Below, one piece after another: positions 51,631 through 53,825 of a DNA stretch of 64,000 bases. The notes beneath the pieces are model-generated. The model made no database searches, had not been told where the DNA came from, and saw only the letters and a program-made list of their open reading frames with translations. The DNA lies in the NCBI RefSeq assembly GCF_037477895.1, contig NZ_CP132744.1:372001-436000 (forward strand), written 5' to 3'. Every line of letters starts with the position of its first letter. Within the stretch, counting starts at the first letter, position 1. A program made the position numbers and the translations under genes. The DNA comes from Mycetohabitans endofungorum. GTDB taxonomy: Bacteria; Pseudomonadota; Gammaproteobacteria; Burkholderiales; Burkholderiaceae.

Positions 51631-51852
51631 TTAGTGGCAGATTTGCTTCATGTCGGCTTCGGACAAGCCCGTCATACGTTTGACCGTCTCGCGCTCCAAT
51701 CCGCTTTCTAGCATCGTGCGCGCGATCTTCAGTGCGGCTTCCTTGTGGCCTTCTTCGCGCCCTTCTTCACGTCCTTCTTCACGTCCCAACATCCGGCCGC
51801 GCTCCAGACCTTTTTGCTCGCCTTTTTGCTCGAGCTTTTGTGCAATCGTCAT
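51631..51852 (-). CDS. candidate intragenic RpnS-type C-terminal protein inside the Rpn gene
   Basis: In the same frame as the Rpn gene, ATG 51852 is preceded by AGGAGG (51858-51863) five bases upstream, a near-ideal ribosome-binding site in the middle of a coding region. It would give a 73-residue protein: MTIAQKLEQKGEQKGLERGR, the GREEGREEGREEG repeat and the tail ERETVKRMTGLSEADMKQ. In E. coli the C-terminal parts of Rpn genes are known to be made separately as small proteins that inhibit the full-length nuclease. This site fits that design; expression is not shown by the sequence. Confidence 0.7.
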   Translation of the reverse strand: MTIAQKLEQKGEQKGLERGRMLGREEGREEGREEGHKEAALKIARTMLESGLERETVKRMTGLSEADMKQICH

Positions 51853-52581
51853 CAAGACCTCCTCGTGTTGCGGGGAACGGATCGCCAACTCTCGCATAAA
51901 TCGCTCCGGATCCGTCGTGTCGCCCCACTGCAGCATATAATGCATCAGCGACACCAATTGCTCGTGCGTAGTGTACCCCGCGATCAACAGGCTTGCCAGT
52001 TGCTCCAGCAGCGTCGCCAAATCACGTTGCCGGATATGCTTTTGCAGCAACTCTAGCATCGCCATGCGCCGATGCGTGAGGATTTCATCATCCGGAATCA
52101 CCGTGACATCCACTAACGGAAAGCCTCCCGCATACAGCTGCGACGCCAACTCAGGCGCCTCGAAGCTGTCCAACCACCGCATTGAGTACGGATACGGACT
52201 GACTTGCCCGTGATAAAACAGCATCGGAATCACCAGCGGCAACTGGTCATGTCCGGCTTCTAGATGGCGCTGCATGGCGGCTATCGCGTAACGCATTAGC
52301 CGAAACGCCATGTGACGTTCCGGCCGGCTTTGATGCTCAATCAGCGCATAGACATACCCCTCGCCCTGCCGGGTCTGCAGCGACCACAGTACATCCGAAT
52401 AGTAAGCGCGCAGATCTTCTTCCACAAAGCTGCCCGACTCCAGACGCAATGTGTTCAGGTCGCACTGCGCCAACCACTGCGTGGGCAAATGCAGGCTTAA
52501 GAAATCCCGCGCGGTGTCCGGATGCGTGAGAAACTGCTTAAAGAGCGCGTCGTGCGGCGTCATCGTCGATGAGCGTTTCAT
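51631..52581 (-). CDS. Rpn family recombination-promoting nuclease/putative transposase
   Basis: A 316-residue PD-(D/E)XK nuclease of the RpnA/YhgA group. The N-terminal domain starts PHDALFKQFLTHPDTARDFL. Catalytic residues are visible as the Asp in YYSDVLW (about residue 63) and the E-x-Q of ALIEHQS (about 82-88). The C-terminal quarter holds GREEGREEGREEGHKE, a tandem repeat of 12-bp units typical of this family, and ends MTGLSEADMKQICH. Rpn proteins are linked to phage defence and recombination. Start ATG 52581 is used; ATG 52563 is possible. A strong internal start lies inside this gene (separate entry). Confidence 0.93.
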   Translation of the reverse strand: MKRSSTMTPHDALFKQFLTHPDTARDFLSLHLPTQWLAQCDLNTLRLESGSFVEEDLRAYYSDVLWSLQTRQGEGYVYALIEHQSRPERHMAFRLMRYAIAAMQRHLEAGHDQLPLVIPMLFYHGQVSPYPYSMRWLDSFEAPELASQLYAGGFPLVDVTVIPDDEILTHRRMAMLELLQKHIRQRDLATLLEQLASLLIAGYTTHEQLVSLMHYMLQWGDTTDPERFMRELAIRSPQHEEVLMTIAQKLEQKGEQKGLERGRMLGREEGREEGREEGHKEAALKIARTMLESGLERETVKRMTGLSEADMKQICH

Positions 52582-52824: not shown

Positions 52825-53279
52825 TCATAATCCCAGTTCGGTGGCGATGATGTTGCGTTGAATATCAGAGGTTCCCGAATAGAGGAGGGATGCGATGGCG
52901 TCGCGCAGTCCTCTTTCAGTAGGGGTTTGAGCGAGATAACCTTGCGCACCGTAAATGCGCAGTGCGTCTATCGAAAACTTCGTGTACGTTTCCGAGACGA
53001 ACAGCTTCGCACAGGCCGCTTCCAGCGTGGCATCTTTGCCCGCATCCTTGAGCCGCCCTACCCGGTAGACGAGTTCGCACGCGGCATCGAGGTTGACTTT
53101 CATGTCGGCGAGGCGATGGGAGGTGGCCTGGTTCTTCCCAATGGGTTGGCCGAACTGGCGGCAGGTACGCGCGTGGGTAATGCATGCTTCAAGGCGGCGG
53201 CGCATGGCTCCCAACGTGATGGCAAGAATGCGTCCACGTTCATATTCGATGGCACTTCCAAAGACCTTGACGCCTCGTC
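52825..53279 (-). pseudogene. acyl-CoA dehydrogenase remnant, C-terminal part
   Basis: About 150 codons reading SAIEYERGRILAITLGAMRR, CRQFGQPIGKNQATSHRLAD, CAKLFVSETYTKFSIDALRI and the final SLLYSGTSDIQRNIIATELG. These are the C-terminal helical domain of acyl-CoA dehydrogenases, including the FGxPIG and YSGTSDIQRNIIA motifs. The N-terminal and middle domains are absent: at about 53280 the frame runs into IS3-type transposase sequence. It therefore cannot work as an enzyme, although a fused frame stays open to 53541. Confidence 0.88.
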
Positions 53280-53284
53280 CCTCC

Positions 53285-53825
53285 CGCCCCGGTACGCCTG
53301 ACTTTTCCCCAACTGCCAGCCTTCGCGGCGTAATAGCATGGGGACACGCCGATAGCCGTAGCGCACGCATGTGTAGGCAATTTCGCGCATGCGTGCGTGA
53401 ACTCAGCACGAGGGTCCTGGCGCTGCGGTAGTACTGAGCGCTGCGCGGTTGCTTTACGAGCCGGCAGGCCTGCCCCATCGTCAATCCGTAGCGGCTTACC
53501 ACGTAACCCACTACCTCTGTCCTCAGCGCGGGCCGGGCCACTTTTTTGAGGCAACATCTTGCAACATAGTCTTGTCCAGGCTCAGTTCAGCAACTAGCTT
53601 CTTGAGCCGTGCATTCTCGTCCTGCAATTGCTTGAACTCACGCACTGGGTCCGACTGCATCCCAGCGTATTGCTTCTTCCACCGATAGAACGTCTGCTCG
53701 CAAATGCCGATCTGGCGAATCAAGTCCGCCATCGGCATCCCCAGTCCCGCCTGCTTGAGTACAACCACAATTTGTTCGAGCGAAAACGCTTGCGTTTTAT
53801 GACAAACTACCTCGTTCAGGGCCAA
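53285..53825 (-). mobile_element. degraded IS3-family (IS407-like) insertion sequence
   Basis: OrfA-like frame (53523-53825) has the HTH and leucine-zipper pattern QIGICEQTFYRWKKQYAGMQ with LQDENARLKKLVAELSLDKT. Downstream, OrfB pieces VVGYVVSRYGLTMGQACRLV and AYTCVRYGYRRVPMLLRREG appear in different frames, so orfB has frameshifts and is cut off after GWQLGKSQAYR by the acyl-CoA dehydrogenase junction. The 5' end of orfA also looks replaced. The DDE core is gone, so the element is inactive. Confidence 0.88.

Follow-up and report, generated by a model that had tools for sequence, protein, structure and literature searches.

A very probable RpnA-type toxin-antitoxin gene in Mycetohabitans, with an antitoxin start inside the nuclease reading frame

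The window, a stretch of 64,000 nucleotides of a Mycetohabitans endofungorum genome (G000, 3.55 Mb), carries an rpn gene whose reading frame contains a late ATG codon preceded by a Shine-Dalgarno sequence (Table 1). We refer to the full-length protein as RpnL and to the C-terminal product that would start at the internal ATG as RpnS.

Table 1. Features of the rpn locus, with coordinates in the window
Feature	Coordinates	Strand	Basis
rpnL, full-length Rpn nuclease, 316 aa	51631..52581	minus	Reading frame, PF04754 and TIGR01784
PF04754 domain, residues 8-209	51955..52560	minus	Profile match; nucleotide coordinates computed from residue numbers
Stretch with catalytic residues D11, D63, E82 and Q84	52330..52551	minus	Identity to E. 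coli RpnA
AGGAGG Shine-Dalgarno sequence, formed by codons 240-242 (GAG GAG GTC)	51858..51863	minus	Sequence, energy of -12.4, codon bias in the family
rpnS, putative 73-aa antitoxin from ATG 51852 (M244)	51631..51852	minus	Sequence, family conservation, fold model
12-nt tandem repeat, REEG units, inside the predicted long RpnS helix	51749..51786	minus	Repeat and model

In a profile search, the protein matched positions 1-202 of the 203 positions of PF04754 with 293.8 bits, for a curated cut-off of 21. Its NCBIfam bit scores were 407.7 for PRK09956, 391.4 for RpnA (NF007361) and 225.9 for TIGR01784; the curated cut-off was exceeded only for TIGR01784, as NF007361 needs 583. The protein is a member of the Rpn family that NCBIfam does not call as RpnA itself. 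Comparison with E. coli RpnA, using the set of residues named or tested in the published work (PMC5350276), showed that D11, D63, E82, Q84, R94 and the PDDE motif around D165 are all identical in the two proteins. The gene is the only PF04754 match of the genome, in which no second copy of rpnS was found either. A search with PF12784 was uninformative, with no match in this genome but also none in 14 control genomes.

The flanks of rpn that we tested comprise ssb, a transporter gene, a hydrolase gene and a transposase/acyl-CoA-dehydrogenase remnant. By eye, the minus strand of 52825-53825 harbours a piece of transposase fused to the acyl-CoA-dehydrogenase remnant, with a small transposase-like frame after it, and part of this flank (to 53297) travels with rpn in genome G080 and with a split rpn copy in genome G090. 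PADLOC listed nothing for Rpn and four of its neighbours (five proteins given). The site beside ssb is also occupied by rpn in G080 and G070, two genomes of the same genus. There is no rpn beside ssb in G090, another Mycetohabitans genome, whose three intact copies and one split copy (L003, L017, L030 and L126) are located elsewhere. PF04754 is present in 16 of the 398 genomes of the family, with no match in four small genomes (1.1-1.2 Mb) of the genus. Close Rpn relatives, at 60-71% identity, are also encoded on 26 contigs of a viral collection (L137-L162).

Within the gene, the minus strand reads GAG GAG GTC TTG ATG, with AGGAGG at 51863-51858, a 5-nt spacer and the ATG at 51852-51850. This ATG is codon 244 of rpn and shares its frame down to the stop codon at 51633-51631. 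The original prediction of an in-frame ATG with AGGAGG five bases upstream, giving a 73-residue C-terminal product that includes the REEG repeat, thus describes the sequence exactly; the product has three REEG units. With an anti-Shine-Dalgarno energy of -12.4, the site at ATG 51852 is the best among the 35 in-frame starts located from codon 9 onwards, whereas the energy at the called full-length ATG is 0.0 and no Shine-Dalgarno sequence was seen there. A consensus scan detected no sigma-70-like site in rpn, but such a scan cannot exclude an internal promoter.

The original prediction also argued that chance seldom leaves such a site within a coding region, which is overstated for this single gene. 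Synonymous resampling of the codons of the window gene matched or surpassed the site in 31% of 300 draws (p = 0.31), a high rate that stems from the two consecutive Glu residues of the protein at that place. The pattern AGGAGG-N4-8-ATG was observed 3 times in the window vs 1.13 expected from shuffles, and 99 times genome-wide vs 31 for the reversed pattern. Fourteen of the 97 distinct placed sites of the genome, including the rpn site, are preceded in frame by a start codon 100 or more codons upstream, although some of them may be true gene starts, and at nine of the 14, the rpn site again among them, the product would have at least 50 residues. As 31% of the resampled genes match the site and 14 of 97 sites lie deep in frames, rarity is a weak argument. 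The 13 other deep in-frame sites (L176, L205, L208, L209, L210, L212, L223, L227, L233, L236, L245, L248 and L260) are candidate internal or mis-called starts. Chance as the whole explanation is compatible with this gene taken alone, but it is rejected by the codon bias found across the family.

For the family, the alignment comprised 118 distinct Rpn proteins, taken from named genomes, E. coli K-12 and genomes of the window's family. BLAST analyses of the ORFs of the loci gave 146 rows, from which 27 partial or poorly covered ones were set aside, and the removal of one identical protein from the remaining 119 yielded the final set; loci L015 and L016 had no BLAST row. The PF04754 places used were those with loci (30) or taken in a second set (20). 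The search for aligned starts allowed a shift of at most 3 residues, and full-length starts were picked by rule, not from annotation. A start codon is present at the place aligned with M244 in 116 of the 118 genes (ATG in 115, GTG in one). The two exceptions, L065 and L108, have a split frame at that place and the start in the next frame. In 114 of the 116 genes (exceptions L079 and L007), the called full-length start has a weaker ribosome site than the internal start. The count is 114 of 116 as well when the comparison is made with the best start codon close to the called one, and in 83 genes the internal site is the best of all in-frame starts. Two genes, L007 and L021, have weak internal sites (-3.0).

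It is conservation that makes the case, and it extends to the third positions of the codons that form the Shine-Dalgarno sequence. In the RpnA-like subset, 84 genes of 50% identity or more, codon 240 has G as its last letter in 75 of 75 Glu, Lys or Gln cases vs 27.6 expected, and codon 241 in 62 of 68 such cases vs 27.7 expected, the expected counts having been computed from the codon usage of each gene. These codons are the top two of 74 Glu/Lys/Gln columns for G-ending bias, with z values of 12.0 and 8.8 (next 5.3), which are not probabilities since the rows are related and the columns overdispersed (-7.1 to +5.3 where no reason is known). Figures from one gene per cluster (37 genes) are safer, the rows being related; in this set, too, codons 240 and 241 lead the 72 columns, with z values of 8.2 and 5.4 (next 2.9, lowest -3.9). 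The bias extends to 18 genes of 32-50% identity (8 of 8 and 14 of 15 G-ending codons; z of 5.3 and 5.1) and is weak in the 14 most distant homologues (10 of 10 and 7 of 10; z of 2.4 and 1.4). As controls, we considered other conserved Met codons of the RpnA-like set. A site of -5 or better precedes M91, M96, M103 and M290 in 5%, 0%, 1% and 9% of the genes, respectively, vs 100% of the 83 genes with a Met at place 244. Because the silent positions of codons 240 and 241 are biased towards G and other conserved Met codons rarely have such a site, we read the ribosome site itself as being under selection, and not only the protein. Alignment of the internal site among homologues, a check proposed with the original prediction, thus came out in its favour.

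Small frames that correspond to RpnS also occur on their own. The start codon falls exactly at the aligned Met in 10 of 14 partial or small frames checked, and 8 of 12 small database proteins begin there, including a 65-residue protein of Klebsiella listed with 1000 contigs. E. coli ypaA (L114), an annotated pseudogene, starts at the aligned Met with its own AAGGAG, and its product was reported to be synthesized (PMC10327210). In L108, a copy from an Enterobacter metagenome-assembled genome, the codon just before the RpnS ATG is a stop, possibly through a sequencing error. L126, the split copy of G090, keeps both the internal site and RpnS. Extra rpnS-like frames were seen near rpn in the Edaphovirga and Yersinia alsatica loci (L050 and L067), like the published rpnE/ypaA arrangement of E. 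coli.

The structural model of RpnS (mean pLDDT 82.9, pTM 0.48) has helices at residues 3-49, 54-61 and 65-71. Its top PDB match is 7TH0, the structure of RpnA-S, with a probability of 1.00 but an E value of 0.034, no match reaching 0.001, and with an rmsd of 14.5 A over the whole alignment. A sequence comparison of the whole window Rpn with the PDB likewise gave 7TH0, as its only match (E 0.00036). Among the 40 PDB entries listed in an RpnS profile search, no stretch passed alone besides 7TH0; the remaining matches, repeat proteins or designs, were treated as low-complexity noise. In the RpnL model (mean pLDDT 86.9), one helix is predicted to cover residues 237-292 and to span the repeats; Foldseek with this model gave no match at E 0.001. 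Repeat number varies within Mycetohabitans and RpnS ranges from 61 to 73 residues. The window RpnS has 73 residues, that of strain B8 69 and that of G070 65; in G090, the intact copies give 73, 61 and 69 residues and the split one 65 (lengths of 65 counted by hand).

Those features can be compared with the experimentally characterized Rpn systems of E. coli (PMC10327210, a preprint). There, M244 was proven to be the internal start of RpnA, and changes at K240, E241 and M244 abolished expression of RpnA-S. All five E. coli rpn genes gave small products on blots, a C. difficile rpn gene yielded one in E. coli, and the E. coli genes were reported to have an internal transcription start. RpnL of RpnA alone cleaves DNA strongly and RpnS blocks the cleavage, the two forming a 2:2 tetramer. 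That the C-terminal part can inhibit the nuclease, which the original prediction cited as published for E. coli, is documented in that work. Four-residue repeats were described 8-20 residues after the internal Met, in numbers that vary among relatives, and one extra repeat in RpnC breaks the RpnL/RpnS pairing. The window RpnS has this feature, with four-residue repeats after the internal Met that vary in number among relatives.

E. coli RpnA (YhgA) shares with the window protein 55% identity, the catalytic residues and the aligned internal start, and both RpnS proteins have three helices, those of the window protein being modelled and matched to 7TH0 at the E value of 0.034 given above. The two differ in bacterial order, in the Shine-Dalgarno sequence (AGGAGG in the window gene vs AAGGAG in rpnA) and in the length of RpnS, longer in the window (73 vs 49 residues) owing to the four-residue repeats. 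Other Enterobacterales Rpn proteins (Erwinia, Serratia, Yersinia) are closer, at about 70-74% identity, and have the same HEEVLM junction with AGGAGG, but the Mycetohabitans copies form a clade of their own with REEG-type repeats. In other genera of Burkholderiaceae, 32 PF04754 genes of 24-41% identity have the aligned internal ATG with a Shine-Dalgarno sequence that is mostly present, but weak (-3.0) in two genes of G008. Unlike the window gene, the 10 of these included in our tree lie outside its group.

The nearest named relative of the window Rpn is that of Mycetohabitans sp. B8 (95% identity). A tree built from 77 rows groups the five Mycetohabitans sequences in a single clade (support 100), surrounded mostly by Enterobacterales sequences and away from other Burkholderiaceae. 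In this quick tree, several joins around the clade are weakly supported, long branches meet and sequences below 32% identity were left out. The position of the clade among sequences of that order suggests that the window rpn was transferred from Enterobacterales.

The match at M244, the codon selection at the Shine-Dalgarno sequence, the catalytic residues, the stand-alone RpnS frames and the tentative fold match to RpnA-S together make it highly probable that the Mycetohabitans genome has a complete single-gene toxin-antitoxin system of the RpnA type. The homology at M244, the codon selection and the stand-alone RpnS proteins speak for the predicted Rpn gene with an internally started antitoxin; the argument from the rarity of a single site is weak by itself. 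Modelled mainly on the E. coli system, ribosomes would start at ATG 51852 and make more of the 73-residue RpnS than of RpnL, which would be initiated poorly. RpnS, a predicted helical dimerizer, would pair through its repeat helix with the same C-terminal region of RpnL and block DNA cleavage, and some condition, possibly phage attack, would set the nuclease free. Which RpnS pairs with which RpnL may be determined by the count of four-residue repeats. For the window gene, toxicity, inhibition and phage defence are predicted by analogy with the E. coli work.

Other readings of the locus must be weighed against this one. The gene might be a decaying, insertion-sequence-like remnant neither product of which matters now. 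This is improbable, but the annotation as a putative transposase family, the adjoining transposase and acyl-CoA-dehydrogenase remnants and the split copy of G090 would fit it; on the other hand, the window frame is intact with all the tested catalytic residues, the gene occupies the same site in two relatives and G090 has three further intact copies. Slightly less probable still, the E-E-V-L-M stretch could be kept only for the protein, as part of the helix joining nuclease and tail, with AGGAGG a by-product of the two Glu codons and with no separate product. The stretch indeed falls in a long predicted helix, and for the window gene alone the resampling rate is what this reading would expect. 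It is countered by the G-ending third positions of codons 240 and 241, far above the genes' own usage, by the other conserved Met codons that lack such sites, and by the small proteins that start at the aligned Met and exist alone.

A small product might also be made and yet be a structural subunit needed for activity rather than an inhibitor, as in the Cas11d/Cas10d pair cited as a precedent (PMC10327210). Both Rpn products share the dimerizing tail, and the published 2:2 complex of RpnA would suit such a role. We nevertheless consider this the least probable of the three, and very unlikely, given that E. coli RpnL cleaves strongly by itself and is blocked by RpnS, and that active site and boundary are unchanged in the window gene. 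The preferred reading remains an RpnA-type nuclease with an internally started antitoxin.

The mechanism is already known from E. coli work, and a C. difficile gene has also been reported to yield a small product, so that only the lineage is new; the window gene leaves the known Rpn mechanism unchanged, and its presence in this new lineage is very likely. No published description of a Mycetohabitans rpn was found among the titles and abstract beginnings of the literature on Rpn antitoxins and on Mycetohabitans toxin-antitoxin systems, and the term 'Rpn' is absent from the main text of a paper on the genus (PMC12696581). That paper reports that no cas operons were found in Mycetohabitans, non-CRISPR defences being outside its survey. 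From Enterobacterales to distant Burkholderiaceae, the strong internal and weak full-length sites of 114 of 116 genes lead us to propose, tentatively, that antitoxin excess may be set largely at translation. As part of the same tentative proposal, copies with different repeat numbers in this endofungal genus, such as the four of G090, may be insulated nuclease/antitoxin pairs that do not cross-react. Beyond E. coli and C. difficile, the sequences by themselves point to an internal antitoxin start kept by selection at silent positions, and they add a candidate defence gene to Mycetohabitans, which has yielded no cas operons.
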